Shown: one piece after another, positions 22,888-50,843 of the stretch | Numbering within the stretch: position 1 is the stretch's first letter | Layout: every line of letters begins with the position of its first letter | DNA from: Microterricola viridarii | GTDB lineage: Bacteria; Actinomycetota; Actinomycetes; Actinomycetales; Microbacteriaceae | Direction of reading: 5' to 3' | DNA length: 64,000 bases | NCBI RefSeq assembly: GCF_001542775.1 | Contig: NZ_CP014145.1 | Coordinates: 1,612,001 to 1,676,000, forward strand | Translations under genes and position numbers: made by a program | Notes under the pieces: model-generated | What the model saw: only the letters and a program-made list of their open reading frames with translations | Database searches by the model: none | Told to the model about the DNA's origin: nothing

Positions 22888-22893
22888 AGCCTA
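22888..22893 (-). promoter_or_regulatory. -10 element (TAGGCT) for csrA, embedding the flhF-like stop codon
   Basis: TAGGCT starts with the TAG stop of the flhF-like gene and ends 6 bp before the csrA GTG. GAAAGGA further upstream is too distant (about 12 bp) to be an ideal ribosome binding site. Confidence 0.4.
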
Positions 22894-31116: not shown

Positions 31117-31143
31117 TATCGGCAGCGATCTGCGGCGCGTTAG
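31117..31143 (-). promoter_or_regulatory. Sigma-28/FliA-type promoter before fliM
   Basis: Read on the minus strand: CTAACGCG, 11 nt, TGCCGATA. Same layout as the sites before fliC, flgB, flbD and flgN. It lies in the 58-bp motB-fliM spacer, so fliM-csrA can be transcribed separately from flbD-motAB. Confidence 0.65.
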
Positions 31144-31174
31144 GCACCGGTGCGGCGATTTCTGCGAGCCGTGC

Positions 31175-31987
31175 CTAGCCGGCGACGGGCTCCTTCTTGG
31201 CGAGTGCCATGGGGATCAGTTCGCGCACCGATTCCGGCAGCTCGGAGAGCACGGCCACGTCGACGCGGCGGTTCACCGCGGCATCCTCTGGGCTGTCCCC
31301 CGTGCGTGCCGGCCGAGTGGAACCGTAGCCGACGGCGGAGATGTGGTCTCCAGGGAAACCGGCCGACTCGACCATGCGGCGCAGCACCTGTGTGGCGCGC
31401 CCGCCGGAGAGTTCCCAGTCGGTCGGGAAGGGGGTCGGGGAGCCGCGGTAGTCCGCGTGGCCCTCGACAGAGACGGCGTGTGCCGCGGAGGCCAGGATGG
31501 GGCCGATGGTGTCGACCACGGCGAGGGCGTTGCCCTGCAGTTGGATGCTGTTCGGCTGGAAGAACGTCTCCCAGCCGATCAGGCCGATGGTCAGGCCGCG
31601 CTGGTCGATCACGAAGGTCACGGTGTGCTCGAGGTTCTGGGTGGCCAAGGCAGAGCGCAGCTGCTCGCGCAGCTGGATCAGGCCGTCGACCTCCGCGGAG
31701 GCCAGGTCGGAGTCGGTGAAGCCGGCGCCTTGCTCGTCGACGAGGTCTTCCGGCACGACTACACCGGATGCCGTGTCCAGCTTGCCCACATCCACGCTGC
31801 CGAAGCCGGTGGCCAGGGAGTTCTTCAAGGCGATGAACTTGTCCTGGTCGACCGTCGACATCGCGAACAGCACGATGAACAGACACATCAACACGGTGAC
31901 CATGTCCATGTACGAGGCCATCCAGCGCTCGTCGACGTGCTCCTCGGTGGGCTCGGCGCGGCGCTTGCGGCCGGTGGACCGGCTCAT
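31175..31987 (-). CDS. motB: Flagellar stator protein MotB
   Basis: 270 residues. One membrane helix with the ion-binding Asp28 (ASYMDMVTVLMCLFIVLFAMS), a plug region, and an OmpA-like peptidoglycan-binding domain (VSVEGHADYRG, ISAVGYGSTRP, NRRVDVAV). With MotA it forms the proton- or sodium-driven stator. The residues visible around Asp28 do not decide which ion is used. ATGA overlap with motA. Confidence 0.96.
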   Translation of the reverse strand: MSRSTGRKRRAEPTEEHVDERWMASYMDMVTVLMCLFIVLFAMSTVDQDKFIALKNSLATGFGSVDVGKLDTASGVVVPEDLVDEQGAGFTDSDLASAEVDGLIQLREQLRSALATQNLEHTVTFVIDQRGLTIGLIGWETFFQPNSIQLQGNALAVVDTIGPILASAAHAVSVEGHADYRGSPTPFPTDWELSGGRATQVLRRMVESAGFPGDHISAVGYGSTRPARTGDSPEDAAVNRRVDVAVLSELPESVRELIPMALAKKEPVAG

Positions 31988-32778
31988 GCCGCTTCCGTCT
32001 CCGTCACCCGAGGCTCCTTGGCCCGACGGCTCGGCTCACGCGGGACCATCGCGCGCAGGCGATCGCCGAGCAGGCGGGGCTGGCTGCCGGCGTGGATGGC
32101 AAGGACGCCCTCCATCAGCAGCGTCATGCGCTCGACCTCGAGCTCGGCCAGGCGCTTCAGCCGGGTGCCGATCGGCAGGAAGATGAAGTTGGCGCTGAGC
32201 AGGCCCCAGAGGGTGGCGACGAAGGCGGTGGCGATCATCGGGCCGAGGGTGGCCGGGCTGTCCAGCTTCTCGAGCACGTGGATCAACGAGACCACCGTGC
32301 CGATGATGCCGATCGTCGGGGCGTAGCCGCCGACGCTGGTGAAGTAGCGGGCGGCGTTGCGGGCGCTGCGGTCGCTCGTGCTGATCTCGTCTTCCAGCAT
32401 GATCCGCAGCTCTTCGCCATCGGTGCCGTCGGCGACGCTCTGCAGCGCACGCTTGAGGAACTGGTCCGGCTCCTCCTCCGCCTGAATCTCGAGGGCGAGG
32501 AGCCCCTCTGAGCGCGCCGTCTCGGCCAGCGAGACGAGCTTGCCGATGGTGGCGTCTGGCTTCGTCGTGCGGCCGAGGAACGCGCTGGGCAGCGCCTTGA
32601 ACGCGGCAAGCGTGTCGCGGAGGGTGCCGCCGGCCATGCCGACGGCCATGCTGGCGCCGAGCACCAGGATCATGGGCGCCGGGAGCAGCACGGCTGTGAC
32701 GGCGGTGCCCTCCAGCGTCATCATGGCGAAGAGGGAGCCGAAGGCGACGACGAGCCCGAGGATGATTGCGATGTCCAC
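31984..32778 (-). CDS. motA: Flagellar stator protein MotA
   Basis: 264 residues, four membrane helices: two at the N-terminus (IAIILGLVVAFGSLFAMM, TAVLLPAPMILVLGASMAVGM) and two around residues ~155-205 (GGYAPTIGIIGTVVSLIHVLEKL, FVATLWGLLSANFIFLPI). A cytoplasmic loop with acidic and basic residues lies between them and contacts FliG. GTG start overlapping the flbD stop (TAGTG). Confidence 0.96.
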   Translation of the reverse strand: MDIAIILGLVVAFGSLFAMMTLEGTAVTAVLLPAPMILVLGASMAVGMAGGTLRDTLAAFKALPSAFLGRTTKPDATIGKLVSLAETARSEGLLALEIQAEEEPDQFLKRALQSVADGTDGEELRIMLEDEISTSDRSARNAARYFTSVGGYAPTIGIIGTVVSLIHVLEKLDSPATLGPMIATAFVATLWGLLSANFIFLPIGTRLKRLAELEVERMTLLMEGVLAIHAGSQPRLLGDRLRAMVPREPSRRAKEPRVTETEAA

Positions 32779-33038
32779 TAGTGCGTGTCTCCCGGCGTCG
32801 TCACGGGGCGGAGCACGGCGCGCGGCCGGGTGCTCTGCTCCTGCATCTCGGATGCCAGGTTGATGACGCGCGCGCGGTACTCCGTGATGCGGGTGATCAC
32901 CTCGGCCAAGGATTCGGTCACGATGTACTTGGCGCCGTCGAGCATGACCAGGGTCGTGTCGGGGCTCTCGTGGATGCGCTCGATCAGATCAGGGTTGATC
33001 GCGAATTGGCTGTCGTTGAGTCGGGTGACGACGATCAT
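32778..33038 (-). CDS. flbD: FlbD-family flagellar protein
   Basis: 86 residues. The family core is MIVVTRLNDSQFAINPDLIE, IHESPDTTLVMLDGAKYIV and a helical part ESLAEVITRITEYR. FlbD is a small conserved protein that often precedes motA in Gram-positive and spirochaete flagellar operons; its biochemical role is not settled. First gene of the flbD-motAB unit, 56 bp after a sigma-28-type -10. Confidence 0.92.
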   Translation of the reverse strand: MIVVTRLNDSQFAINPDLIERIHESPDTTLVMLDGAKYIVTESLAEVITRITEYRARVINLASEMQEQSTRPRAVLRPVTTPGDTH

Positions 33039-33093
33039 CGCCTCGCCTCGCTTCTGCAGAAGTTTTCACGGCCAAACGGCCGTCACGCTGCAC

Positions 33094-33120
33094 TATCGGC
33101 ACGACCCGGGCAGCGGTAAG
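33094..33120 (-). promoter_or_regulatory. Sigma-28/FliA-type promoter before flbD
   Basis: Minus strand: CTTACCGC, 11 nt, TGCCGATA. The -10 is identical to that before fliM; the -35 differs from the others at two core bases. Confidence 0.6.
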
Positions 33121-33135
33121 GCAGGCAGAAGCCAT

Positions 33136-33657
33136 TCAGTGCCGCGCGGCGTCGGCGTCGGCGGCGCGATCGTCCGCGCGCGCGAGCTGCGGGACGATGA
33201 TCCAGCCCACCACCAGGAGCAGGGCGACCGCGGCAGCGACGGTGATGCCCCAGACGCGGCCGAGCACGAAGTCGAAGATCAGAAGCGCGATGCCGACGAC
33301 GGTGACGGCGACCCCGACAAGCGTGAGCCGGGCGAATCGGTCGGCATACGCAACGACCATCTCCTTGGCACGCTTGCGGAAGAGGTACCGGTGCAGACTC
33401 ACTGGGGCCAAACCGACGATGGTCGTCAGCACCGAGGTGACGACGAGGCACAGATAGGTGGTGAGCTGGAAGGTGTCCAACTCGGTGAATCGAGATTGGA
33501 ACACCGCAGCAAGCAGGAATCCGGTGATGACTTGGGTGCCCGTCTGCACCACACGCAGTTCCTGGAGCAGTTCGTTCCAATTTCGGTCGAGCCGTTTACT
33601 GGAGAACCGCTCCCCCGCATCGGGGGAACCGCCATCGGGCTGTTCGTGCGCCACCAC
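33136..33657 (-). CDS. DUF6328-type membrane protein
   Basis: 173 residues from the GTG at 33657, which has GAGAGAG upstream; an ATG at 33696 overlapping the preceding gene is an alternative. RNWNELLQELRVVQTGTQVITGFLLAAVFQ is the family signature, followed by three or four membrane helices and a charged C-terminus rich in Asp and Arg. Function unknown. The gene has no flagellar counterpart. It lies immediately upstream of the flbD promoter, with a stop at 33136 only 16 bp from the -35, at one edge of the block that interrupts the flagellar locus. Confidence 0.78.
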   Translation of the reverse strand: MVAHEQPDGGSPDAGERFSSKRLDRNWNELLQELRVVQTGTQVITGFLLAAVFQSRFTELDTFQLTTYLCLVVTSVLTTIVGLAPVSLHRYLFRKRAKEMVVAYADRFARLTLVGVAVTVVGIALLIFDFVLGRVWGITVAAAVALLLVVGWIIVPQLARADDRAADADAARH

Positions 33658-33682
33658 ACCGCTCTCTCGGCCGCGGTGCGCT

Positions 33683-33835
33683 CTAGGCCGGGGCATTGTC
33701 GGGGTCCACCGTCGCGACGGTGTCCTCCTCGACCTCGTTGTCGGCGGTGAGGTCGTCGATGTCCTCTCCCGGCGCAGCCTGCTTGGCTCCATCAGAGTCG
33801 TCAGCAGCGATCTGGTCGTCTCGTCGATCGGTCAT
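33683..33835 (-). CDS. Small acidic protein, unknown function
   Basis: 50 residues from the ATG at 33835, which has AAGGAG eight bases upstream, a better start than the in-frame one at 33868. Very acidic (many Asp/Glu: DDQIAADDSDG, GEDIDDLTADNEVEEDTV) and predicted disordered. No membrane segment. It ends just before the DUF6328 gene on the same strand. The good ribosome binding site supports it as a real gene, but no function can be suggested. Confidence 0.55.
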   Translation of the reverse strand: MTDRRDDQIAADDSDGAKQAAPGEDIDDLTADNEVEEDTVATVDPDNAPA

Positions 33836-33889
33836 TGTGCCATCTCCTTGTGTTCGGATGTCGGGCAATCCACGTGCGGCAGCACGGGC

Positions 33890-34156
33890 TTAGTGGTGTC
33901 GAAGCATCTCGATGAGCTCACCCTTGCGTTTGCCCGAGTAGCCCCGAATCCCCAGCTCTTTGGCGCGCGTGCGCAGCTCAGGTACGGTGCGGTCGTCGTA
34001 GTCCTCGGCCTCGCCACCTCGGCGCCCGACGGCACCGCGGCCGCTCTTCGCTGCGGCGTTGGAGATGCGCGCCGCCTTCTCTTTTGACGCGCCGTCAGCG
34101 CGGAGAGCCTCATACATCTCCGGGTCTTTCAGGCTCGGATTCGTGGTTCCTGGCAT
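33890..34156 (-). CDS. Rho-N/SAP-like small protein (DUF7218-like)
   Basis: 88 residues, ATG with AAGGGAGA at good spacing. The N-terminus SLKDPEMYEALRADGASKEKAARISNAAA is a conserved module of short actinobacterial proteins. The C-terminus TVPELRTRAKELGIRGYSGKRKGELIEML is a Rho-termination-factor N-terminal/SAP-like helix-loop-helix that often binds nucleic acids. The basic middle (KSGRGAVGRRGG) would suit DNA or RNA contact. Such proteins often sit beside stress genes and Ku/LigD or ChaB-like genes; here it is near topoisomerase IB. Confidence 0.75.
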   Translation of the reverse strand: MPGTTNPSLKDPEMYEALRADGASKEKAARISNAAAKSGRGAVGRRGGEAEDYDDRTVPELRTRAKELGIRGYSGKRKGELIEMLRHH

Positions 34157-34404
34157 GGCAGTTCTCCCTTCCGTCTCTCACGGTACGACCCGAAGACAAG
34201 CCGAACGAGGGGCTTGACAGGCACACCTTCGCGTGGATATCGGCGAGACCCGCGACTTCCAAGTAGCACAGGAGAGCTTCGCGTTCAACCCCCTGCGTGG
34301 CAGCCCGCTGGCGAACTAACGTGGTGCTTCGTCATCGAGCCTCGTGGGGTGACCGACACCAGATACGTAGGCCACGGAACTCTCAGTAGGACGGATCAAG
34401 GAAC

Positions 34405-34668
34405 ATGCACAACATGGCCGAACAGGCGTCACGGACCAATCCAAGGCTCACCCTCGCTGTCGCCAAGGGGCCAGGCACCATCGGGGCCAGCGACGTGATC
34501 AGTGCAGTGCGGCCGGAGCTTGATGGCCGCACCCCCGCAGCTGTGAAGAGCATCCTGCGCGAGCAGCTCAACCAGTTCAGTGTCGAGGTCTCCGACAGCG
34601 AGCTCCAGCGGGTTGCAACGGACATCGCGACAGCGGGGCTCGCCCGGGTGCTGGCAACGGCCGGCTGA
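34405..34668 (+). CDS. Hypothetical protein
   Basis: 87 residues with ATG at 34405 or 34414; AAGGA lies two bases before the first and eleven before the second, so the start is unsettled. Sequence (RLTLAVAKGPGTIGASDVISAVRPELDG, VKSILREQLNQFSVEVSDSELQRVATDIATAG) suggests a small mixed alpha/beta or helical protein without membrane segments or catalytic motifs. I do not recognise it. The 248 bp before it hold no other feature I can support. Confidence 0.5.
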   Translation: MHNMAEQASRTNPRLTLAVAKGPGTIGASDVISAVRPELDGRTPAAVKSILREQLNQFSVEVSDSELQRVATDIATAGLARVLATAG

Positions 34669-34773
34669 CGCCGGAGGCGTACCCCCGAGAGCGCCCACTG
34701 AAACTCAACCCACGACACACACCCAGCGAAAAACACCCAGCGAAACTCTTTAGCCGAATGGATGGAGCGTGCC

Positions 34774-35064
34774 ATGAACGACTTTAAGCTGCCTGCCGAT
34801 GAGGGCTCGAACACCCAAGATGAGCCCGTGATGGAGCAGGATGCGGTCACCGATCGGGAGAAACTGGATGGGATTGCCGCCCAGACCGTCGCCGATCTCG
34901 GAACGCACGACCTGCGCCACGTCCATGCTGTTGTTTTTGAGCGGAGCACCGAGTCCGGGTTGCACGTTTCCCCCGGCGAACTGGTGGATGCCGTGGGCGC
35001 CGCAGCCCGCGAGAAGGACGCTTCCTTCTCCGTGCCCGCCTCCACCGACCGCGACACCGACTGA
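34774..35064 (+). CDS. Hypothetical protein
   Basis: 96 residues; the ATG at 34774 is preferred over 34762 because GGAG lies seven bases upstream. Acidic N-terminus (NDFKLPADEGSN...EPVMEQD) then a compact part (KLDGIAAQTVADLGTHDLRHVHAVVFE, VSPGELVDAVGAAAREK). No known family recognised. It ends 6 bp before the topoisomerase IB start and probably shares its transcript. Confidence 0.5.
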   Translation: MNDFKLPADEGSNTQDEPVMEQDAVTDREKLDGIAAQTVADLGTHDLRHVHAVVFERSTESGLHVSPGELVDAVGAAAREKDASFSVPASTDRDTD

Positions 35065-35070
35065 CCCGCC

Positions 35071-36045
35071 ATGCCCCGCCTGCGCACGGTCGACCCCGCC
35101 ACGCCGGGCTGGAGCTTGGTCCGCGCCGGCGACGACGTCACCATCGTGGACCAACAGGGTTCAGTACTCGCGGACGAAGAGGTCGCTGAGCGAGTCGACG
35201 CACTGCGCATTCCGCCCGCCTGGACCGATGTCTGGATCGCACCCCACGCGAATGCGCACATCCAGGTGGTCGGCACCGACGAGGCCGGGAGACGCCAATA
35301 CCTCTATCACGAGCAGTGGCAGCGCAGGCAGGCGAAGCGGAAGTACGACAGGGCTCTGGACCTGGCAGCCAGACTTCCCGCCGCGCGGCGGGTGGTCACC
35401 CGGGACCTGCGCGCGGACGGGCAAAGCAGGGCGCGGGCGCTGGCCGTGGCATTCCGTTTGTTGGACAGCGCCTACCTGCGCGTCGGGAGCGAACGCTACG
35501 CGAAGCGGCACGGCAGCAGGGGGCTGACGACGCTGCTCGGCTCCGATGCGCACGTCTCCGGCGACACCGTGCTCCTCGCATTCACCGGCAAGAGTGCCGT
35601 CGACTGGTCATCGCGGACGACGGACCCCGATCTCGCCCGCGCGGTGCGAACGCTGAAAAGGCGCGGGCCAGACGCCCATCTGCTCGCCTGGCAGGACGAC
35701 TCCGGCTGGCATCCGCTGCGCGCCGACGAGGTGAACGAGTACGTGCGGGAGCGCACGCAAGGCGACTTCACGGCGAAGGATTTCCGCACGCTGCACGGCA
35801 CCATCACGGCCGCGCAGTCACTCGCGGCGCAGGGCCGGCAGCCGAGCGCGGCGGCCAGGCGGCGGGCCGCAACGGAGGCGAGCCGGGTCACCGCCGAGGC
35901 GCTCGGCAACACGCCGACGGTTGCGCGCGCCACCTACATCGACCCCCGCGTGTTCGACCGGTTCCGTGAGGGGCGTGTGCTCCAGACGAACGGGCTGGCA
36001 CCGGAGTCGGCACTCAGGCTGTTGCTGCTCGGCGACAACGCCTGA
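35071..36045 (+). CDS. DNA topoisomerase IB (poxvirus-like)
   Basis: 324 residues. N-terminal domain (RIPPAWTDVWIAPHANAHIQVVGTDEAGRRQYLYHEQW) and catalytic tyrosine-recombinase-like domain are both present. The catalytic Tyr289 lies in RATYIDPRVF, the family's C-terminal motif, and basic active-site residues are in LGSDAHVSGDTVLLAFTGKS and the DFTAKDFRTLHGT helix. It nicks one DNA strand through a 3'-phosphotyrosine and relaxes supercoils. Such genes are scattered in soil bacteria with a patchy distribution typical of transfer. Convergent with flgE, separated by a perfect hairpin. Confidence 0.92.
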   Translation: MPRLRTVDPATPGWSLVRAGDDVTIVDQQGSVLADEEVAERVDALRIPPAWTDVWIAPHANAHIQVVGTDEAGRRQYLYHEQWQRRQAKRKYDRALDLAARLPAARRVVTRDLRADGQSRARALAVAFRLLDSAYLRVGSERYAKRHGSRGLTTLLGSDAHVSGDTVLLAFTGKSAVDWSSRTTDPDLARAVRTLKRRGPDAHLLAWQDDSGWHPLRADEVNEYVRERTQGDFTAKDFRTLHGTITAAQSLAAQGRQPSAAARRRAATEASRVTAEALGNTPTVARATYIDPRVFDRFREGRVLQTNGLAPESALRLLLLGDNA

Positions 36046-36073
36046 GGCGGACCGCGGCAGGGCTTAATCAGGT

Positions 36074-36106
36074 GCGGAGGCCAGAATCTGAGATTCTGGC
36101 CTCCGC
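36074..36106. terminator. Perfect 15-bp hairpin between topoisomerase IB and flgE
   Basis: GCGGAGGCCAGAATC, loop TGA, then its exact complement. Located 26 bp before the flgE stop on one side and 28 bp after the topoisomerase stop on the other. No T tract; presumably a bidirectional terminator that also ends the fliC-flgE side transcript. Confidence 0.7.
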
Positions 36107-36132
36107 AGGCGACGCGCGCCGCGTTCTGGGCG

Positions 36133-37302
36133 TTAGCGCTTCAGGTTGGTGAGCTCCTGCAGCACCTCGTCGGAGGTGGTGATGATGCGGGCGTTCGCCT
36201 GGAAGCCACGCTGGGCGACGATCAGGTTGGTGAACTCCTGCGAGAGGTCGACGTTCGACATCTCGAGCTGGCCGCCGGCGAGCACGCCGAGGCCGTCGCC
36301 GCCGGGAACGCCGTATGCCGCGTTGCCCGAGTTGACGGTGGCGCGGTATCCGGAGGATCCGGCCTTCTCGAGGCCGCCAGGGTTGGCGAAGGTGGCCAGC
36401 GCCACGCGGGCGATGGGCTCCTTCGCGCCGTTGCTGAACAGGCCGACGAGCGTGCCGTCCTTGGAGAGGGTGAAGGATTCCAGCGTGCCGGCCTGGCGGC
36501 CGTTCTGCCCCTCGATGGCGACAGTGCTGAGCGTGGCGTAGCCGGTGATACCGGCCAGGTCGACGGTGATGCCGCCGAGCACGAGCGGCGTTGCACCGGT
36601 CTGCACGCCGTTGGTGAAGCTGAGCGTGCCCGTGACGGGTGCGCCGCCCGCGGTGCCGGAGACGTCCCAACCGGCGGCCGTCTTGGTGAAGGTGAGGCTC
36701 AGGGTGCCCGGCTTGCCGTCGGCGCCGTACACCGGCACGTCGCGGACGAGCGCGGTGCCGTCGGCGGCGTCGGAGGGCAGGTTGCCGCCGACGGATGCGG
36801 CGGTGGTCGCCACGGCGGGGGAAACACCCTTCAACGGCAGGCTGATGGTGCCGACGGCACCGCCGGTGGGGACCTGGCCGTTCACGGCGTTCCAGCCCTG
36901 CACGAGGGAGCCGTCGGGCGCGGTCAGTCGGCCGTCGGCGTCGAGCTCGAAGGCGCCGGCGCGGGTGTAGCGGGTCTCGCCGCCGATGCTGGTGACGAAG
37001 AAGCCGTCGCCCGCGATCATCATGTCGGTCGCCCGGCCGGTCGCCTGGGCGGAGCCCTGGGTGAAGTTGGTCGAGATGCCGGCGACCTGCACGCCGAGTC
37101 CGACCTGCGATGGGTTGGTGCCACCGGTCTGCGCCTGCGGGCCACCTGCACCCTGGGTGAGCTGGGAGAGCGTGTCCTGGAACTGCACGGCAGAACCCTT
37201 GAATGCGGTGGTGTTGACGTTGGCGATGTTGTTGCCGGTGACGTCGAGCATGGTCTGGTGCGAGCGGAGGCCGGAGATTCCGGAGTAGAGCGAGCGAAGC
37301 AT
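36133..37302 (-). CDS. flgE: Flagellar hook protein FlgE
   Basis: 389 residues. N-terminal rod/hook signature LRSLYSGISGLRSHQTMLDVTGNNIANVNTTAFKG, a VAGDGFFV-like segment (MIAGDGFFV), and the C-terminal ANARIITTSDEVLQELTNLKR that forms the inner D0 coiled coil. It polymerises into the hook outside the cell after export. No flgF or flgG (distal rod) gene is found in the window. 75 bp downstream of flgD. In compact flagellar loci flbD commonly follows flgE; here a 3-kb unrelated block lies between. Confidence 0.95.
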   Translation of the reverse strand: MLRSLYSGISGLRSHQTMLDVTGNNIANVNTTAFKGSAVQFQDTLSQLTQGAGGPQAQTGGTNPSQVGLGVQVAGISTNFTQGSAQATGRATDMMIAGDGFFVTSIGGETRYTRAGAFELDADGRLTAPDGSLVQGWNAVNGQVPTGGAVGTISLPLKGVSPAVATTAASVGGNLPSDAADGTALVRDVPVYGADGKPGTLSLTFTKTAAGWDVSGTAGGAPVTGTLSFTNGVQTGATPLVLGGITVDLAGITGYATLSTVAIEGQNGRQAGTLESFTLSKDGTLVGLFSNGAKEPIARVALATFANPGGLEKAGSSGYRATVNSGNAAYGVPGGDGLGVLAGGQLEMSNVDLSQEFTNLIVAQRGFQANARIITTSDEVLQELTNLKR

Positions 37303-37377
37303 GTGTTGGCCTTTCGGTGGAAGTGTCGGCGGTCAGACGGCGGCGGCTGCGCCGGGATTTGCGGGGTCGGTGGGCAG

Positions 37378-37842: not shown

Positions 37843-37853
37843 GGGGTCCTCTT

Positions 37854-43544: not shown

Positions 43545-45127
43545 ACCGATGCCTTGTCATCCATGAGCGCCCGCAGGTACTCGGCGGTCTTCTTGGGGTC
43601 CCGCTCTGCAAGTCGCTCGATCTCGGAGCGGGTGCGGTCGGCATCCGGTGCGACGGGCAGCACCTCGGTCTCCAGCTCCAGCGGCACGGTCGGGGCCTGC
43701 AGCATCAGGGGGTGCTCCGGCACCTCCAGCGCCTGACGGGCTGCCTCGAGTTCTGCCTCGTCGACGGCCTCGCGGCGGGCGCGCCGCGAGCGGCTCACCA
43801 GCACCGCGGCCAGGACGATCAGCAGGAGCGCGGTGAGGGCGATGATCGCGGTCCGCACGATCTCGGTGAGCTGCTCGCCGGCGGCCGCGTCCTTGGCGTC
43901 GGTGAGCGCCTGCTGTGCCGCGGCTGCCCCACTGGCGTCGAAGGTCATGTACTCGACGGTGACCGTGTCACCACGGGCCACGTCAATGCCGGCCGCGGCC
44001 GAGACGAGCGCCCGCAGGTTGCGGATGTTCACGGTTCCGGGAACGTCGTCGTTGACGGCGACGGAGACCGACTGGCGGCTGAGCGTGCCGGCCGGGATCG
44101 TGCGCGTCTCGGTGACCTTGTCGATCGCGTTGTTGCGGGTGACCGACTCGGAGTTGTACGTGCCGTCGCCGCCCGTGCCGCCCGGCACAGCGATGTTGTC
44201 CGGCCCGAGCACCCCGGCCCCGGCTCCGCCGGTTCCGGTGTAGGTCTCTGTGTCGCGGGATTCGTTCAGTGACGTGATCGTCTCCGGCGCGGTGAACGTC
44301 TCAGCGGTGCGCTCGGCCGATTCGGTGCTGACGTCGGCGGCGACGACGACGGTGGCGTTTCCGGCGCCGACGACCTTGTCGAGCATCGTCTGCACGGAGT
44401 CGCGCACGCGGGTCTCATAGTCGCTGGCGAGTTTGCCCGCTCCGCCGGTCGGGCCGCCGCCGACGGCGGAGAGCACGGTGCCGGCCGAGTCGATCACGGC
44501 GACGTCCGTCGACTTCATGCCCTCGATCGATGCCGAGGTGAGGTGCACGATCGCCTGCACCTGGTCTGCGCCGAGCGTGACGCCGCGGTTGGTCTCAATG
44601 AACACGGATGCCGTCGGCGCCTCCTTCTCGGCGGCGAAGACGGTCTCCTGCGGGATGGCGAGGCGCACAGACGCGGTCTTCACGCCGGTCAGCGCGCCGA
44701 TCGTCGCGGCGAGCTCGCCCTCGAGGGCCCGCTTGTAGGTCACGGACTGCTGGAACTCGGAGGTGGTGACGCCCATCTTGTCGAGCAGCGAGTATCCCCC
44801 GCTGCTCGAGCTCGGCAGCCCGGCCGCGGCGGCCTTGAGGCGCTGAGCGTAGACGTCGTCCTGCGGCACGAGGATGCTGGAGCCGCCATCGCTGAGCTGG
44901 TACTGGATGGAGTCGGACTGGAGCTGCTCGACGATCGCACTCGCGTCGGCGGCCTGCAGGCCGGTGAACAGCGGGGCGTATGACGGCCGGCTGAGCCAGA
45001 TGCCCAGGCCGGCGACGCCGAGCACCAGCACGGCGACGGCGAGCAGCGCGATCGTGCGCTGTGCGACGGTGAATTCGCGCAGACCTGCGGTGAAGCGCTG
45101 CAGCGCGGAGGTGACCTGCCGCGGCAT
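43541..45127 (-). CDS. fliF: Flagellar MS-ring protein FliF
   Basis: 528 residues. Membrane helices at ~24-46 (IALLAVAVLVLGVAGLGIWL) and ~435-455 (IIALTALLLIVLAAVLV) flank the periplasm-side ring-building domains (SPLFTGL-type start, GVKTASVRLAIPQETVF). The C-terminal cytoplasmic tail (RSEIERLAERDPKKTAEYLRALM) binds FliG. It forms the MS ring on which the motor and export apparatus assemble. TAATG overlap with fliE. Confidence 0.97.
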   Translation of the reverse strand: MPRQVTSALQRFTAGLREFTVAQRTIALLAVAVLVLGVAGLGIWLSRPSYAPLFTGLQAADASAIVEQLQSDSIQYQLSDGGSSILVPQDDVYAQRLKAAAAGLPSSSSGGYSLLDKMGVTTSEFQQSVTYKRALEGELAATIGALTGVKTASVRLAIPQETVFAAEKEAPTASVFIETNRGVTLGADQVQAIVHLTSASIEGMKSTDVAVIDSAGTVLSAVGGGPTGGAGKLASDYETRVRDSVQTMLDKVVGAGNATVVVAADVSTESAERTAETFTAPETITSLNESRDTETYTGTGGAGAGVLGPDNIAVPGGTGGDGTYNSESVTRNNAIDKVTETRTIPAGTLSRQSVSVAVNDDVPGTVNIRNLRALVSAAAGIDVARGDTVTVEYMTFDASGAAAAQQALTDAKDAAAGEQLTEIVRTAIIALTALLLIVLAAVLVSRSRRARREAVDEAELEAARQALEVPEHPLMLQAPTVPLELETEVLPVAPDADRTRSEIERLAERDPKKTAEYLRALMDDKASV

Positions 45128-45447
45128 TAGGCCTGCATCCTCATGATCTCGTTGAAGGCGTCGACACCCTTGTTGCGCACGGCGGCGACGAGTTCGACGG
45201 TCACCTGTGCCCTGGTCGACGCGATCGTGGCGGCGTGGATGTCGGTGAGGTCACCGGTGACGGCGCGCAGGGAGAGCTCGCTCGATGCGGTCTGCACCTG
45301 CTGCATGTTCTCGACGGCGCCGCTGAGCGCCGTGGCGAACCCGGCTCCCCCGCTGGCCGCCGGTGCGGCGGCCTGGTCGATGTAGCCGCTCGGACGCACG
45401 CCCTGAACCGCTCCAGCGCCGATTGCGTCAATGGGTCCGATGGGCAT
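45127..45447 (-). CDS. fliE: Flagellar hook-basal body junction protein FliE
   Basis: 106 residues. Helical C-terminus (VTGDLTDIHAATIASTRAQVTVELVAAVRNKGVDAFNEIMRMQ) is the family signature. It joins the MS ring to the rod and is the first exported substrate. ATG at 45447 overlaps the flgC TAA; a longer upstream frame inside flgC is spurious. Confidence 0.95.
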   Translation of the reverse strand: MPIGPIDAIGAGAVQGVRPSGYIDQAAAPAASGGAGFATALSGAVENMQQVQTASSELSLRAVTGDLTDIHAATIASTRAQVTVELVAAVRNKGVDAFNEIMRMQA

Positions 45448-45836
45448 TAGCCACGTCCGATCTGGAGGGCTGCCTGGTAGCTCTCCTTGGCTCTGTCGAC
45501 GACAGCGGCGTTGGCCTGGTAGCCGCGCTGCGCCATGATCAGCTGCCCCATCTGGGCGCCGAGGTCGATCTCTGGGTAGCGCACGTATCCGTTGGCGTCG
45601 GCCAGCGGGTGCTCTGGATCGTGCACCATGCGGCCCTCTGCGTCGCCGAGCGCGGTGCCCGCGACGAAGACGCCGCCGTCGGCACCTTCCTGGGCGAGCA
45701 CGTAGCGCTCCTGGAACGCGGCACCGTCTGTCGAGGTGACGGTGTTGATGTTGGCGATGTTGTCGGAGATCGCGTCGAGCCACTTGCGGTGCACGTTCAG
45801 GGCCGAGCCGGCGATTCCAATTGCGTCAAAAGTCAT
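45447..45836 (-). CDS. flgC: Proximal rod protein FlgC
   Basis: 129 residues. N-terminal IAGSALNVHRKWLDAISDNIANINTVTS and C-terminal YPEIDLGAQMGQLIMAQRGYQANAAVVDRAKE are typical rod signatures. 14 bp after flgB. ATG start preceded by CGGGGGAGCGGG as ribosome binding region. Confidence 0.95.
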   Translation of the reverse strand: MTFDAIGIAGSALNVHRKWLDAISDNIANINTVTSTDGAAFQERYVLAQEGADGGVFVAGTALGDAEGRMVHDPEHPLADANGYVRYPEIDLGAQMGQLIMAQRGYQANAAVVDRAKESYQAALQIGRG

Positions 45837-45850
45837 GTCCCGCTCCCCCG

Positions 45851-46192
45851 TTAGTTGCTTCTCATCGCGCTGCGCACACTCGTGAACTGGCCCTCGATCG
45901 CCCGTGAGGCGAACTGGAAGCGCAGCACGGTGTCGATGTTCGAGAGCGTCTCGGTATCGAGGTTGACGTTGTTGCCGTTGAGCTTCGTCGGCTCGAGTGA
46001 GCGCTCCGTCGTGGCGTCAGCGTGCCCGTCACCACGGGCGATCGAGCTGGCCAGTGCGCCCTCGAATGCAACCCGCTTGGCCGTGTAGCCGGCGGTGTTG
46101 ATGTTGGCGATGTTGTCTGCGATGGTGCGTTGGCGCAGGGCCAGGCCATCCAGAGCGCTGGAGATCGCGGAGAAGCTCACGGAATCGAACAC
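45851..46192 (-). CDS. flgB: Proximal rod protein FlgB
   Basis: 113 residues. SSALDGLALRQRTIADNIANINTAGYTAKRVAFE and the C-terminal LSNIDTVLRFQFASRAIEGQFTSVRSAM match FlgB. GTG start with AAGGA six bases upstream. First gene of the long flgB-flgE operon, with a 77-nt leader from the sigma-28-type promoter at 46276-46302. Confidence 0.95.
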   Translation of the reverse strand: MFDSVSFSAISSALDGLALRQRTIADNIANINTAGYTAKRVAFEGALASSIARGDGHADATTERSLEPTKLNGNNVNLDTETLSNIDTVLRFQFASRAIEGQFTSVRSAMRSN

Positions 46193-46275
46193 ATTCGTCC
46201 TTCATGACGGCGATGCGAGTGACAGGTGGCCGATCCGTGGCCGAAGGAGGCGAGCAATCCGTGCTCATAACTCAC

Positions 46276-46302
46276 AATCGGCCGCTCGGGTCGATCCGTT
46301 AG
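46276..46302 (-). promoter_or_regulatory. Sigma-28/FliA-type promoter before flgB
   Basis: Minus strand: CTAACGGA, 11 nt, GGCCGATT. The -35 is identical to that of fliC and the -10 nearly so. This drives the basal-body operon, which in enterobacteria is instead under FlhDC and sigma-70. Confidence 0.72.
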
Positions 46303-46308
46303 TGTTCG

Positions 46309-46346
46309 CGCGCACGCAATTGTTGTGCGCGCACAATTCGTGCGCG
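46309..46346. promoter_or_regulatory. Large palindrome abutting the flgB promoter
   Basis: Arms CGCGCACGCAATTGT (46309-46323) and ACAATTCGTGCGCG (46333-46346) are complementary except for one extra C, and the centre holds a perfect 14-bp palindrome TTGTGCGCGCACAA (46323-46336). It is 6 bp upstream of the -35 and 8 bp after the fliT-like stop. It could be an operator for a dimeric regulator or a terminator of the fliC-fliT transcript. Confidence 0.55.
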
Positions 46347-46354
46347 GGCCGGGC

Positions 46355-46720
46355 TCAGCCGGAGACGTCGAGGTAGACGGATGACGCGGCCGCGCGCGGG
46401 CGCGGCACGGAGCGCAGCGCCTCGAGGTGCCGCAGCACGTCGGCGCGCTCGGCGAGCAGCTCGGCCTCGCGCTCGTTCTGCCGTTGGTAGAGGGCGTCGG
46501 CGCGTTCGCGCAGGGATTCGGGGAGCACGGGCAGCTGAGCGGGAGCGCTCCACATGCCGCTGCCGGCAAAGGAGACATGGCTCGCGTCGTCGCCGACGCT
46601 GTCGGCCGGGCCGAGCTCGGCCTCCGATTCGGCGGCCGGCTCGATCTCCAGCTCGGATTCCAGCTCGGTCAGGACGCGTGCCCAGAGTTCCTCGGCCACC
46701 TCCGTCGCGCGGGCCGGCAC
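46355..46720 (-). CDS. FliT-like small flagellar protein (tentative)
   Basis: 121 residues from the GTG at 46720; a TTG at 46738 overlapping fliS is another option. Acidic middle (LTELESELEIEPAAESEAELG) and a helical C-terminus (LPESLRERADALYQRQNEREAELLAERADVLRHLEAL). Position directly after fliS and the helical character fit FliT, the chaperone of FliD, but similarity is too weak to be sure. It could equally be an unrelated operon member. Confidence 0.5.
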   Translation of the reverse strand: MPARATEVAEELWARVLTELESELEIEPAAESEAELGPADSVGDDASHVSFAGSGMWSAPAQLPVLPESLRERADALYQRQNEREAELLAERADVLRHLEALRSVPRPRAAASSVYLDVSG

Positions 46721-46730
46721 GCTCTGCGGT

Positions 46731-47297
46731 CTAGGCAATGCCGATCGCTCCCGTGCCCGTGGCGGACGGTCCGGCCGGCAGGATGGCCGCGGCATCGTGC
46801 CAGGCCAGCCGCAGCGGCTCGAGCAGCGCGATGGATTCGCGGGTGCGGGCGATGTCGCGGTGGATGTTGGCCATGACGAGGGCGTTGGTGACGTACGTGT
46901 ACAGCGCCAGCAGGCCGTCGGCGCCGTCCCAGACGTCGAGCTTCAGCGACCCGCTCAGCTCGGCCAGGATGGCCTGGGCGTGCTGCAGCTGTTCGCTCGC
47001 GACGCCCCAGTTCTCGACCGACTGCGCCTGCTCCGCCCGGTTGAGGTCGAGCAGCAGCCGGTCGTAGAGCATGGTGAGCAGCCGCACCGGCGTCGCCGAC
47101 AGCACGGCGTCGCGGTTGAGTTGCGCAGCACGGTCGGCGGCGCCGCGCTCTGCGGCCGGTCGGCGCAGCGGCACCGGCATCGCCGCGCCGGCGAGCTGGC
47201 CGAGCGGGGTGACGGGCGCCAGGCCCGCTGCGGGTGCGGCCGGGGGCGTGACGTCGACGGGCTGTGCGGCAGTCTCGGGGGTGACGATCAGCTTCAC
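46731..47297 (-). CDS. fliS: Flagellin export chaperone FliS
   Basis: 188 residues, longer than usual because of ~55 Pro/Ala-rich N-terminal residues. The FliS core begins around residue 58 (AQLNRDAVLSATPVRLLTMLYDRLLLDLNRAEQA) and continues with the four-helix bundle (LYTYVTNALVMANIHRDIARTRESIALLEPLRLAW). It binds the flagellin C-terminus in the cytosol. ATGA overlap with fliD. Confidence 0.93.
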   Translation of the reverse strand: MKLIVTPETAAQPVDVTPPAAPAAGLAPVTPLGQLAGAAMPVPLRRPAAERGAADRAAQLNRDAVLSATPVRLLTMLYDRLLLDLNRAEQAQSVENWGVASEQLQHAQAILAELSGSLKLDVWDGADGLLALYTYVTNALVMANIHRDIARTRESIALLEPLRLAWHDAAAILPAGPSATGTGAIGIA

Positions 47298-48670
47298 TGC
47301 GAGTTCCCGGAGTTCAGGCCGGCCAGCTGCGAGCCGATCCAGGAGGACTGCGCGTTCAGCTTGCTGAGCTGCACCTCGAGCGCCGAGTAGGTGCGCTTGA
47401 GGGTGTCCTCTCGCAACGCCAGGCGGCGGTCCCAGTCTGCGATCTGGGTGGTGATGTCCTTGGAGAGGGCCGTCTGCCCGGTGATCTTCGCCGTGATCTG
47501 GCCGTCGTACTTGTCGGAGGCGAGGCGGGCGGCCTCCTCAAGGCGGGTCGTGATCACGGTGAGCGCGTTCTGCGTGGCCGCCGGGTCTGCGGCCAGTGAC
47601 TTCGCGAACTTCTCGGCGTCGAACTCCATCCGGCCGCCCTTGGTGATGCTGATGCCGAACTCGGACGGCGAGCGGCCGTTGATGGGTGCGGATGCCGCAT
47701 TCATCAGCTTCTGCTCGGCATCGCGCACGGTGCTGTCGGAGCTGAACACGCCGCCCGTCACGACGGGCTTGCCGTCGGCGCCCGTCGTTGTCGTGAGCGT
47801 GCGCTTCGTTGCGATGAAGTCGAAGATCTCGTTGAGCTTGCCGATGAGCGTCTCGGCGACCTTGCCGATGGCCTTGTCGTCACGGGCGACGGTGACAGTG
47901 ATCGGCGTCGCGCTCGTAGCGGTGACGGCCACGCTGATGCCGGGCACCAGGTCCGTGAAGGTGTTGCTGCTTGACGTGATGGTCTGCGCGGCGGCCGTGC
48001 CCTTCCAGAGGGTGACCTCGGCGTTCTCGGCGCTGCGGATCGTGGTGGCGGTCAGCTGGCCGGCGGTGCCGGCGGTGACGGCCGCCTTGGTGCCGTCGTA
48101 GACGGTGAATGCGCCTGCTGTTCCCGACTCCTTGGCCGTGAGCTGCAGGCGGTAGAGGGTGTCGCCGGTCACGGCGTCAACACCGGAGGCGACACGAGTG
48201 GCCTGCACACCGGCATCCGCGGCGTTGATGGCCGAGACGACGTCGAACAGCGACGACGACTCAGCGGTGATCTCGGTCAGCGTGCCGTCGGCCGACTTGA
48301 CGGTGAGCACGGGCGGGTCAGTCGGCCAGGTGGCCATGGCGTCGGTCACGAGCTGCTGCGATTGCGCCAGCTTCTCGACGGTGACATCGAGCTGCGTGGC
48401 CCCGGCACCCTTGCTGACCGTGACGGTGGCGGACTTGTCGGAGCTGCTGGCCGTGTAGAGGTCGAGGGCGTCCGGCTTCATGCCGTTCTTGCCCAGCTCC
48501 GCGAGGGCCGCGACCGAGCTGTTCAAGGTCTGGAGCGACTTGAGGTAGTTCTGCGTGGAGACGTACTTGTTCTGCAGGAGGTTCTGCGGGATCGCCTCGA
48601 CAGCCATCAACGACTTGATGAGATCCGCGGTGTTGAGCCCGCTGACGAGTCCGCCGAGAGAGATTCCCAT
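47294..48670 (-). CDS. fliD: Flagellar filament cap protein FliD
   Basis: 458 residues. N-terminal GLVSGLNTADLIKSLMAVEAIPQNLLQNKY and C-terminal coiled coil (LALREDTLKRTYSALEVQLSKLNAQSSWIGSQLAGL) match FliD; the Thr/Ala-rich middle is the exposed domain. It caps the filament and folds incoming flagellin. Separated from fliC by a strong terminator, but no sigma-28-type site is seen before it, so readthrough or an unseen promoter must serve it. Confidence 0.95.
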   Translation of the reverse strand: MGISLGGLVSGLNTADLIKSLMAVEAIPQNLLQNKYVSTQNYLKSLQTLNSSVAALAELGKNGMKPDALDLYTASSSDKSATVTVSKGAGATQLDVTVEKLAQSQQLVTDAMATWPTDPPVLTVKSADGTLTEITAESSSLFDVVSAINAADAGVQATRVASGVDAVTGDTLYRLQLTAKESGTAGAFTVYDGTKAAVTAGTAGQLTATTIRSAENAEVTLWKGTAAAQTITSSSNTFTDLVPGISVAVTATSATPITVTVARDDKAIGKVAETLIGKLNEIFDFIATKRTLTTTTGADGKPVVTGGVFSSDSTVRDAEQKLMNAASAPINGRSPSEFGISITKGGRMEFDAEKFAKSLAADPAATQNALTVITTRLEEAARLASDKYDGQITAKITGQTALSKDITTQIADWDRRLALREDTLKRTYSALEVQLSKLNAQSSWIGSQLAGLNSGNSQ

Positions 48671-48732
48671 GAGTTCTGCCTTCGCGTTTCGACTGTCGCG
48701 CGTTCCTGCCGCGCGGGTGGATACTGCACGAG

Positions 48733-48776
48733 GGCCGGTGCGGGGCGAGACAGGTCTGTCACGCCCGGCACCGGCC
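48733..48776 (-). terminator. Strong hairpin after fliC
   Basis: Long near-perfect palindrome: GGCCGGTGC...GCACCGGCC arms with inner GACAG/CTGTC, about 20 base pairs in total. It lies 57 bp after the fliC stop. It would attenuate transcription into fliD and help make flagellin mRNA more abundant. Confidence 0.75.
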
Positions 48777-48832
48777 GTCGTTGTGTAGCGATGCTCTACT
48801 GCTGGTCAGATGCGGCGTGTTGCCGCGCCTGG

Positions 48833-49669
48833 CTAGCGGAGGAGCTGGAGAACGCCCTGGTTGGACTGGTTCGCCTGCGCGAGCATGGCGGTACCGGCCT
48901 GCGACAGCACGTTCGAGCGGGTGTACTTGACCATCTCGGACGCCATGTCGGTGTCGCGGATGCGCGACTCGGCAGCCGAGAGGTTCTCCTTCGACACGTT
49001 GAGGCTCTTGATGGTCGACTCGAAGCGGTTCTGCTGCGCACCGAGGTCGGCGCGAGCGGTCGAGACCGCGGTGATGTGTCCGTCGAGGGCCGTGATCGTT
49101 GCCAGCGCAGCGGTCTTGTCGGCGAAGCCGGCAGTGGCGAGCGTGGTAACAGCCGCACCGATCGTCGAGACGTTGGTGAGGTTGACCGCGATCTGGTCCT
49201 CAGCGGCAACGCCGCCGGCGCCGACCTGGAAGGTCAGGCTGGCGTTGGAGCCATCGAGCAGCTTGATGCCGTTGAAGTTGGTCGACGCACCGATACGCGT
49301 GAGCTCTGCACCCAGCGCGGTGACCTCGGTTGCGATGGCCTCACGCGACTTCGCGTTGTTCGAGTCGTTGCCGGACTGCACGGCGAGGTCACGAACGCGC
49401 TGCAGGATGGAGTGCACCTCGGTCAGGGCGCCTTCAGCGGTCTGGATGACGCTGATGCCGTCCTGTGCGTTGCGAGCGGCGACCGTGAGGCCACCGACCT
49501 GCGAACGCAGACCCTCGGAGATCGCGAGACCAGCTGCATCGTCGGCCGCACGGTTGATACGCAGACCACTGGAGAGCTTCTCCAGCGACTTCGACAGGTC
49601 GTTCTGCGTGATGGACAGGTTGCGGTACGAGTTGTTGGCCGCAATGTTGGTGTTGATCTGCATACCCAT
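48833..49669 (-). CDS. fliC: Flagellin
   Basis: 278 residues, a short flagellin with conserved D0/D1 ends (MQINTNIAANNSYRNLSITQNDLSKSLEKLSSGLRINRAADDAAGLAISE; C-terminal NVLSQAGTAMLAQANQSNQGVLQLLR) and little exposed D2/D3 domain. ATG at 49669 with GGAGGA seven bases upstream. Transcribed from a sigma-28-type promoter with a ~55-nt leader that contains two candidate CsrA sites. Only flagellin gene in the window. Confidence 0.98.
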   Translation of the reverse strand: MGMQINTNIAANNSYRNLSITQNDLSKSLEKLSSGLRINRAADDAAGLAISEGLRSQVGGLTVAARNAQDGISVIQTAEGALTEVHSILQRVRDLAVQSGNDSNNAKSREAIATEVTALGAELTRIGASTNFNGIKLLDGSNASLTFQVGAGGVAAEDQIAVNLTNVSTIGAAVTTLATAGFADKTAALATITALDGHITAVSTARADLGAQQNRFESTIKSLNVSKENLSAAESRIRDTDMASEMVKYTRSNVLSQAGTAMLAQANQSNQGVLQLLR

Positions 49670-49676
49670 GATGAAT

Positions 49677-49719
49677 TCCTCCGTGAGTGGGTTTCGGTAC
49701 ACCGGCCCATCCGTGGGCC
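49677..49719 (-). promoter_or_regulatory. Candidate CsrA-binding leader of flagellin mRNA
   Basis: In the RNA, GGCCCA-CGGA-UGGGCC (49719 down to 49704) folds into a 6-bp hairpin with GGA in the tetraloop, the classic CsrA target. A second GGA is in ACGGAGGA, the ribosome binding site (49677-49684). This spacing of one upstream hairpin site and one overlapping the ribosome binding site mirrors the hag leader of Bacillus subtilis. Confidence 0.6.
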
Positions 49720-49731
49720 AGTACTTTGCAC

Positions 49732-49758
49732 AATCGACCGACCGGAGGCATCCGTTAG
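49732..49758 (-). promoter_or_regulatory. Sigma-28/FliA-type promoter before fliC
   Basis: Minus strand: CTAACGGA, 11 nt, GGTCGATT. It shares its -35 exactly with the flgB site. Expected transcription start is near 49725. Confidence 0.7.
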
Positions 49759-49791
49759 CGAGTCACGGAAAATTCTTGCCCGTGCGGGTGG

Positions 49792-50604
49792 CTAGCCGAC
49801 GTTGCTGATCAGCGAGGGAGCAGTGGCGGCCCGCGCGCCCTGGCCGAGGTGCTCCTCGAAGCGCGAGAGGTAGGCGACGCGGCGGGTCGCTGTGAGCTTG
49901 GGGTCCGGCACGCTCTGCACCTCTGCGTCGTCCGAGTAGCGCTCACCCAGCCCGTCGCGGATCAGCCGGAGCGCCTCTGAGCGCTGCTGCGAGACGGCGG
50001 AGTGGGTGATGCCCAGGTCTTCGGCGATCTCCTTGACGGTCCTGTCGTCGAAGTAGATGGCGCGCACAATCATGGCCATCCGCTCCGGCAGGGCGTCGAC
50101 GGCTGCGGTGACGAAGCGCTGCCGCTCGTCCAGCAGCAGGGACTCCTCCGGCGAGGTCATCTCGGAGACGAGGTATTCCGCCGTGCTGTCGTCGATGGTG
50201 GTGACGGTACGCGCCGCATCGGAGAGGGCGGCAGCCGCGGTCTCCCGGTCGACGCCGAGCGCTGCGGCCAGTTCATCGACGTTGGGAACCCGGCCGAGCG
50301 TGGCCGTCAACGTCTCGCGAGCGGAGACCGTCTCGGTGATCCGCTTGCGGGCGGAGCGCGTCGCCCAGTCGCTGGAGCGCATCTCATCGGCAAACGCGCC
50401 GAGGATGCGGGTGCGGGCGTAGGCACCGAACGGTATCCCCCGCTCGACATCGAAGTTGTCGGCGCACGTCACCAGCGCGAGCGCGCCGGCAGCGGCGAGG
50501 TCGTCCCGAGAGAGGTGACTTGCCCTGGCACAGACGTCGTTCACCAGGTAGCCGACAAGCGGCAGGTTGGCGACGACGAGATCATTGCGGTCCGCACGAT
50601 TCAC
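49792..50604 (-). CDS. fliA: Flagellar sigma factor (FliA/WhiG-type sigma-28)
   Basis: 270 residues from the GTG at 50604. Region 2 includes LPLVGYLVNDVCARASHLSRDDLAAAGALALVTCADNFDVERGIPFGAYARTRILGAFADEMR with the SSDWATRSAR 2.4/3.0 segment. Region 3 is VPNVDELAAALGVDRETAAAAL and region 4 LPERMAMIVRAIYFDDRTVKEIAEDLGITHSAVSQQRSEALRLIRD. This matches the sigma-28 group. No anti-sigma FlgM gene is recognisable nearby. It is 65 bp upstream of the fliC promoter in the same direction, and is the obvious reader of the five sites listed here. Confidence 0.92.
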   Translation of the reverse strand: MNRADRNDLVVANLPLVGYLVNDVCARASHLSRDDLAAAGALALVTCADNFDVERGIPFGAYARTRILGAFADEMRSSDWATRSARKRITETVSARETLTATLGRVPNVDELAAALGVDRETAAAALSDAARTVTTIDDSTAEYLVSEMTSPEESLLLDERQRFVTAAVDALPERMAMIVRAIYFDDRTVKEIAEDLGITHSAVSQQRSEALRLIRDGLGERYSDDAEVQSVPDPKLTATRRVAYLSRFEEHLGQGARAATAPSLISNVG

Positions 50605-50816
50605 AAATATCAATTCCTGCAATTGTGGCAGCGTGCAGGGTTCACGTACCGGTTTGGACGATTGACGCGGGTAATCGGGTCAGTTCCTCGGGTGTTCCAA
50701 CGCTAACAATGCATGGGGCTCGACACGCGGGGGAATGTCCCCCAATGAGGGTGTCCTCCAAAGTGACGACCCCCGTTCGGGGCCGCGCCCTTTCACGAAG
50801 GCCTCAGGCCCCGTCA

Positions 50817-50843
50817 CTAACATGAAAGCTTGGCCTGCCGACA
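50817..50843 (+). promoter_or_regulatory. Sigma-28/FliA-type promoter before flgN
   Basis: Plus strand: CTAACATG, 11 nt, TGCCGACA. It drives flgN-flgK-flgL-fliW. The rest of the 50605-50903 spacer holds several GC-rich hairpins (for example GGGGGAATGTCCCCC) but no gene. Confidence 0.6.

Follow-up and report, generated by a model that had tools for sequence, protein, structure and literature searches.

In the flagellar cluster of Actinoplanes missouriensis, Jang et al. (2016) reportedly found the motif CTCA-N15-17-GCCGAA at 11 mapped transcription starts and suggested a single sigma factor for that cluster. The flagellar cluster described here, from Microterricola viridarii (Microbacteriaceae), lies in a window of 64,000 nucleotides (nt), which covers 1612001-1676000 in a genome of 3.69 Mb assembled as one contig, and resembles that system in that one sigma factor of the FliA family would serve all flagellar operons of one cluster; such a single-sigma flagellar programme is not new, being already known from Actinoplanes. 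The Microterricola cluster differs in its -35 element CTAAC and in the FliA recognition helix HSAVSQ, and its CsrA-type leaders and apparently leaderless fliM message are not known to have been described for Actinoplanes.

WhiG-like flagellar sigma factors direct genes of the flagellar cluster, and the textbook sigma-28 promoter has a -35 box TAAA and a -10 box GCCGATAA (PMC8325347). In Bacillus subtilis, CsrA covers the Shine-Dalgarno sequence of hag and is removed by FliW (PMC6529632); in Campylobacter jejuni, the flaA leader folds into neighbouring stem-loops whose two GGA loops are separated by 21 nt, flagellin is the main CsrA target and flgB is hardly enriched (0.7-1.6x) (PMC4894983). 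Set beside these systems and its own relatives, the M. viridarii locus leads us to a reading in which we have considerable confidence, namely that FliA would read five promoters at once and that CsrA and FliW would order translation.

FliA would transcribe all flagellar structural operons together from five promoters of the type CTAAC-N15-GCCGATAGT. The sequence-only reading that preceded this work had described five 27-mers of 8-11-8 architecture before fliC, flgB, fliM, flbD and flgN, and all are present, as are the identities that it had pointed out between the -35 boxes of fliC and flgB (CTAACGGA) and the -10 boxes of fliM and flbD (TGCCGATA). With genes named by Pfam and NCBIfam profiles and operon membership deduced from gene orientation and spacing, each site stands at the head of one of five units: fliC-fliD-fliS (predicted promoter at 49732..49758, minus strand, CTAACGGA/TGCCTCCGGTC/GGTCGATT); the long flgB unit, flgB-flgC-fliE-fliF-fliG-fliH-fliI-fliJ-(NlpC/P60)-fliK...flgE (46276..46302, minus strand, CTAACGGA/TCGACCCGAGC/GGCCGATT); flbD-motA-motB (33094..33120, minus strand, CTTACCGC/TGCCCGGGTCG/TGCCGATA); the long fliM unit, fliM-fliN-fliP-fliR-flhB-flhA-(open reading frame [ORF] 22891-24066)-csrA (31117..31143, minus strand, CTAACGCG/CCGCAGATCGC/TGCCGATA); and flgN-flgK-flgL-fliW (50817..50843, plus strand, CTAACATG/AAAGCTTGGCC/TGCCGACA). 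Directly 3' of the -10 box, all five sites carry GT, which the sequence-only reading had not pointed out. The -10 boxes are close to GCCGATAA (GCCGATA twice, GCCGATT, GTCGATT and GCCGACA), and the N15 from TAA(C) to GCCGATA likewise agrees with the textbook sigma-28 spacing; the -35 boxes, in contrast, deviate from TAAA, with TAAC at four sites (one of them TAACA) and TTAC at one, and the GT after the -10 box is a further departure from the textbook form.

Within the genome, CTAAC-N15-GCCGATAGT with at most one mismatch occurs at six sites, those of fliM, flbD, flgB and flgN and two outside the cluster; the fliC site has two mismatches. A loose scan of the window gave 17 matches versus 6.3 expected, and genome-wide the motif was rarer than its reversed control, both at up to three mismatches (90 versus 277) and, for a shorter form, at up to two (97 versus 153). 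Because these genome-wide counts lie below the control, only near-perfect matches count, and the numbers at two to three mismatches were dropped as evidence. The decisive evidence for the promoters is comparative and does not come from single-genome counts.

FliA orthologues (>230 bits) are present in 46 of 150 Microbacteriaceae genomes, including M. viridarii, and cluster sequences were taken from 30 of the 45 FliA-positive relatives, contiguous clusters being preferred. A scan of this genome and of related Microbacteriaceae had been proposed as a check. For 22 flagellar genes, the preceding 350 nt were scanned in the relatives with at most 3 of 14 mismatches allowed; the same five operon heads recurred among the 30, with sites before fliC in 29/30, flgB in 26/29, fliM in 24/28, flbD in 27/28 and flgN in 26/29, and reversed-pattern counts of 0, 0, 0, 1 and 0, respectively. 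At the 17 non-head genes, where the reversed pattern gave a background of up to 2, sites were seen before motA (4/28), fliA (2/30) and fliS (1/30) and before none of flgK, fliD, flgE, fliF, flgC, fliG, fliI, motB, fliN, fliP, flhB, flhA, flgL and fliW in the relatives. With a strict pattern, the 46 FliA-positive genomes yield 172 sites versus 18 for the reversed control, at least one site being found in 45 of them, and the 104 FliA-negative genomes yield 13 versus 50.

The fliA gene itself (49792..50622, minus strand) encodes the region 4.2 helix ITHSAVSQQRSE, and by profile its product belongs to the FliA/WhiG sigma family, with Pfam matches to sigma-70 regions 2, 3 (25.6 against a cut-off of 25.3) and 4 and with FliA_WhiG as its best NCBIfam match. 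In a directed scan for CTAAC- versus CTCAG-type operon heads (within 1 of 11 mismatches, and blind to other forms), the HSA(V/I)SQ helix was found in all 31 family genomes, each with 2-5 CTAAC-type heads and together with a single CTCAG-type head, whereas outside the family the helix was of the SR(V/I)SQ type in 16 genomes, all of which had 1-5 CTCAG-type heads and none of the CTAAC type. One genome from another family of the same order (G442) combines an HSAVSQQ helix with CTAAC; the comparison omits one genome in which a different sigma factor was matched and one from which the helix was not recovered. De novo motif searches outside the Microbacteriaceae returned CTCAG...GCCGAT in two of five groups, in agreement with the motif reported for Actinoplanes, and coding or other sequence but no promoter in the other three.

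Because the region 4.2 helix and the -35 element change together, FliA is supported as the reader of the sites, and CTAAC would be the Microbacteriaceae form of the -35, read by an altered helix (HSAVSQ instead of ESRVSQ). Were a different sigma factor to read the motif, with FliA merely co-occurring, the NCBIfam score of FliA below the curated cut-off (132.6 versus 189.6 bits) would be less surprising, and FliA binding is itself a prediction; however, only one place in the M. viridarii genome matches FliA (E<=1e-10), the number of sites tracks the presence of FliA, and helix and -35 covary, so that we regard a different reader as extremely improbable. FliA would thus bind all five promoters, to judge from site conservation, FliA-dependent site number and helix/-35 covariation, each of which emerges from comparison between genomes. 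The earlier designation of the sites as sigma-28-type promoters is supported. Sequence comparison likewise supports well its two further proposals, that one sigma factor serves the rod/MS-ring/switch/export ATPase/hook, stator, C-ring/export gate, hook-associated protein and filament genes and that the -35 is lineage specific (TAAC, where the textbook has TAAA and where most of the other Actinomycetia that were sampled have CTCAG; region 4.2 of FliA is altered to match). FliA helices HSAVSQ with CTAAC and ESRVSQ with CTCAG would offer a natural pair for the study of sigma-factor specificity.

The motif is not confined to flagellar genes, for the two sites outside the cluster are closely matched in a sister genome (G129). 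The first, a strict sigma-28-type site CTCAC...GCCGATAGT at 3557547-3557575 (plus strand; 6548-6576 of L203), lies ~75 nt before the gene for a predicted secreted protein of 1051 amino acids with Peptidase_M66, TagA and ricin-lectin domains, and G129 has a similar site ahead of a similar-looking gene start. The second, at 2944884-2944912 (minus strand; L202), matches the consensus exactly and lies ~25 nt past the stop codon of a TrkA-domain gene, on the antisense strand, from where it could possibly give rise to an antisense or small RNA; an exact site is found at the equivalent place in G129.

The sites also indicate where transcription begins. A fliM site is present in 26 genomes of the family, M. 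viridarii being one of them, and in 25 of these exactly 7 nt separate GCCGATAGT from the fliM start codon, a GTG or an ATG; in the other the distance is 6 nt. In M. viridarii the probable start is the GTG at 31105..31107 (minus strand). The first hairpin of the flgB leader, described below, begins 7 nt after the box in 20 of 28 leaders and 8-10 nt after it in the remaining 8. It should be noted that the hairpin offsets, like the GGA spacings given below, were counted with simple patterns that include a few mis-hits, and that the fliM offsets were recounted separately. Because the fliM start codon and the flgB hairpin share the 7-nt offset, we infer that flagellar transcripts start at the eighth base after GCCGATAGT, which makes the earlier estimate of 6-8 nt after the box slightly short. 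The fliM message looks leaderless or nearly so. A GTG at 31116 would fall upstream of the transcript. Among the papers listed by literature searches, none treats leaderless flagellar messages and none treats CsrA leaders of actinobacterial flagellar genes; the coverage being patchy, this is weak evidence of absence.

The flat hierarchy that the sequence-only reading had drawn from the common promoters appears to stand for transcription but not for the messages, since CsrA-type hairpins on those of flgB and fliC (and of flbD in some relatives) make a post-transcriptional tier likely. The flgB leader (46225..46269, minus strand) contains two GGA-loop hairpins, GAGCA-CGGAT-TGCTC and GGCC-ACGGATC-GGCC, that begin at the predicted 5' end of the messenger RNA (mRNA) and form a predicted CsrA dimer site. 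At least two GGA-loop hairpins are present in all 28 family flgB leaders with a promoter site, versus 1% of shuffles; this set excludes G016 and G097, which have no promoter site there, and G035, whose stretch ends before flgB. The two GGAs are 22-24 nt apart in 20 of the 28, an arrangement that resembles the C. jejuni flaA leader but sits on the rod/MS-ring operon. Of the 64 trinucleotides, GGA is the top-ranking one in the hairpin loops of all three leaders, flgB, fliC and flbD, where TCC occurs 0, 0 and 1 times, respectively; in flgB, GAT and ATC equal it when one loop is counted, and it leads when two are. Both-side changes are seen in 5 of the 10 flgB stem pairs (reached by 13/500 shuffles), with a covariation score of 0.088 versus 0.052 (reached by 0/500).

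A covariance model of this leader, built from the 28 family leaders and from 13 of 18 other-family leaders chosen for a recognisable first hairpin, has a single match in the whole M. viridarii genome at E<=0.01, the flgB leader itself (E 7.4e-9). It matches all 46 FliA-positive genomes, of which 18 had contributed nothing to its training, versus 1 of the 104 FliA-negative genomes (G123, E 8e-4); the match is weak in four of the 46 (G016, G066, G114 and G040; E 3.5e-5 to 0.003). In G016 and G097, the two of the 18 untrained genomes in which its place was checked, it lies ~30 nt before the flgB match. Beyond the family, at least two hairpins are present in 14 of 18 flgB upstream regions, versus 0-1 for each of fliM, fliF, flgE, fliD, flhB and flgN. 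Rfam gave no match at E<=1 within positions 20000-56000 of the window. A second promoter-like site with a double-hairpin leader lies inside the cluster of G110 (L103), ~5.5 kb from its flgB leader, which suggests that site and leader travel together; second strong matches to the model also occur in G035 and G069, the sequence having been inspected for G110.

In fliC, the leader has a hairpin GTACTGGCCC-ACGGAT-GGGCCGGTGTAC (49697..49724, minus strand), a predicted CsrA site that the second flgB hairpin resembles in sequence, and a second GGA at the Shine-Dalgarno sequence ACGGAGGA (49677..49684, minus strand), ahead of the fliC ATG at 49669. The fliC stem covaries, 6 of its 8 pairs having changed on both sides (reached by 1/500 shuffles) and a score of 0.300 versus 0.139 (reached by 0/500), in an alignment that favours one register and comprises 27 of 30 leaders (omitted were the duplicate reference, G103 and G002 [hairpin further downstream]). 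GGA-loop hairpins in flgN (4/30, against 10% of shuffles) are at background, and fliM has none (0/26, against 4%). The sequence features of a CsrA-regulated leader, GGA in hairpin loops and two sites that a dimer could bridge, are present in flgB as at least two hairpins in all 28 leaders and in fliC of M. viridarii as one hairpin plus the GGA at the Shine-Dalgarno sequence.

These patterns bear on two other explanations of the hairpins. The palindromes past the start sites could act in the DNA, as operators through which a repressor controls flgB and fliC, rather than as RNA elements. In favour, GAGCACGGATCGCTC and GGCCACGGATCGGCC are near-palindromes close to +1, the fliC hairpin resembling GGCCACGGATCGGCC; the fliC stem, however, changes with compensation around an invariant loop GGA, and the loop GGA keeps to one strand, which leaves such operators very improbable. 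The cluster could also be an ordinary single-FliA regulon, as in Actinoplanes, in which only promoters matter and the hairpins merely protect mRNA 5' ends. The five conserved promoters do account for the whole cluster, the hairpins begin close to or right at the 5' end predicted for the message, and CsrA binding is a prediction. We nevertheless think this unlikely: in both flgB and fliC the loop GGA is in sense orientation, the stem of fliC covaries, flgB has two hairpins where fliM has none and flgN a background number, and csrA and fliW lie within the same cluster.

The csrA gene (90 amino acids; 22609..22881, minus strand) is the one csrA match in the whole genome and lies ~10 nt after ORF 22891-24066, where it probably closes the fliM operon. 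L4 and R44 are important in CsrA, and both are retained. Among 31 family regions, csrA was found in 21, in 18 of which it follows the flhA match by ~1 kb. A separate sigma-28 site for csrA was rejected (1/21 within three mismatches, control 0/21). The fliW gene (53700..54068, plus strand), distal in the flgN unit, encodes a CsrA antagonist by homology. With fliW and csrA both encoded near the cluster, the gene content fits a FliW-CsrA-flagellin switch of the B. subtilis type, and the fliC leader, with its GGA hairpin and its GGA at the Shine-Dalgarno sequence, is likewise reminiscent of the hag case. Unlike that case, the most conserved leader is on flgB, csrA and fliW lie in separate units, and FlgM was not found: a profile search for it (PF04316) gave no match in 150 family genomes and matched 3 of 14 control genomes, in line with the loss of FlgM reported for later actinobacterial classes (PMC10746217). 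Because FlgM was not found in this search, transcription would be free of the usual secretion checkpoint, and a FlgM-gated hierarchy is not what the profiles point to.

Assembly order would instead be imposed at translation, not transcription. A CsrA dimer would bridge the GGA-loop hairpins at or near the 5' ends of the flgB and fliC mRNAs and repress their translation; CsrA would probably be made from the distal end of the fliM message, which would offer no leader for CsrA; and FliW, from the flgN-flgK-flgL-fliW unit, would sequester CsrA once flagellin is exported. Co-transcription is presumed here, and CsrA binding, repression and relief by FliW are modelled on the B. subtilis and C. jejuni systems. 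More tentatively, and leaning slightly to the side of doubt, we propose that in FlgM-less flagellated Actinomycetia at large order is set mainly post-transcriptionally, CsrA holding the flgB and flagellin leaders until FliW frees them and the fliM message escaping. If so, the double hairpin of flgB would represent a CsrA-responsive leader not described before and found throughout the class, exerting control at the start of assembly and not only at the filament. The reading of the M. viridarii locus suggests an answer, open to test, to the question of how assembly is ordered in flagellated Actinobacteria that have neither FlgM nor tiered promoters, and it draws attention to an RNA leader, shared by the actinobacterial families that were sampled and unmatched in Rfam, that would place the basal body under CsrA.

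Besides the low FliA_WhiG score, several observations weigh against this combined reading of promoters and leaders. G016 and G097 are FliA positive but have no recognisable flgB or fliM site, G068 has none at fliM, and G016 has no strict match anywhere in its genome; in G016 and G097 the flgB and fliM sites have diverged, yet the flgB leader is still detected. Helix 2 of flgB is nearly invariant, and extra pair types in the flgB alignment do not exceed those of shuffles that ignore kinship (221/500). Single hairpins have a high background in the 130-nt scan of other families (11/19 for fliM), no more than 24 of 30 genomes have a fliC GGA hairpin that passes the strict criteria (11% of shuffles), and flbD hairpins are modestly enriched (16/29 versus 18% of shuffles), with no GGA-loop hairpin in the flbD leader of M. 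viridarii or its two sister genomes. In 10 of the 31 regions csrA was not found, these stretches being judged too short or off the place. Finally, deletion of csrA alone in C. jejuni left several bound flagellar targets unchanged (PMC4894983), and because of this CsrA binding need not mean control.

FliA had been cast as the master regulator, but it is probably not at the top: 28 of 30 relatives have no sigma-28 site ahead of fliA, and an own site was rejected on this count. Upstream of the gene, 17-20 of 31 genomes carry a palindrome. A de novo search finds it as CCCC-N5-GGGG in 17/31 and as [CA]CC[CTA]-N4-TGGGG in 20/31; the former also occurs upstream of flgB (6/30) and of flgN (19/30, in the intergenic region common to flgN and fliA). 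In M. viridarii, two palindromes at 50739..50782, CCCCGAACGGGG (50771-50782) and ACCCTCATTGGGGG (50739-50752), form a candidate operator.

A profile search of the whole genome matched no chemoreceptor (PF00015) or CheW (PF01584) domain, so that M. viridarii apparently has flagella without a chemosensory system, a condition that has been reported in Actinobacteria for 14 of 69 flagellated species (PMC10746217). ORF 22891-24066 (minus strand), between flhA and csrA, partly overlaps flhA and has no Pfam match; its translation is matched in 24 of 31 family stretches, as is an overlapping antisense frame. Between flgE and flbD lie a DUF6328 gene (33136-33792, minus strand) and further unassigned ORFs.

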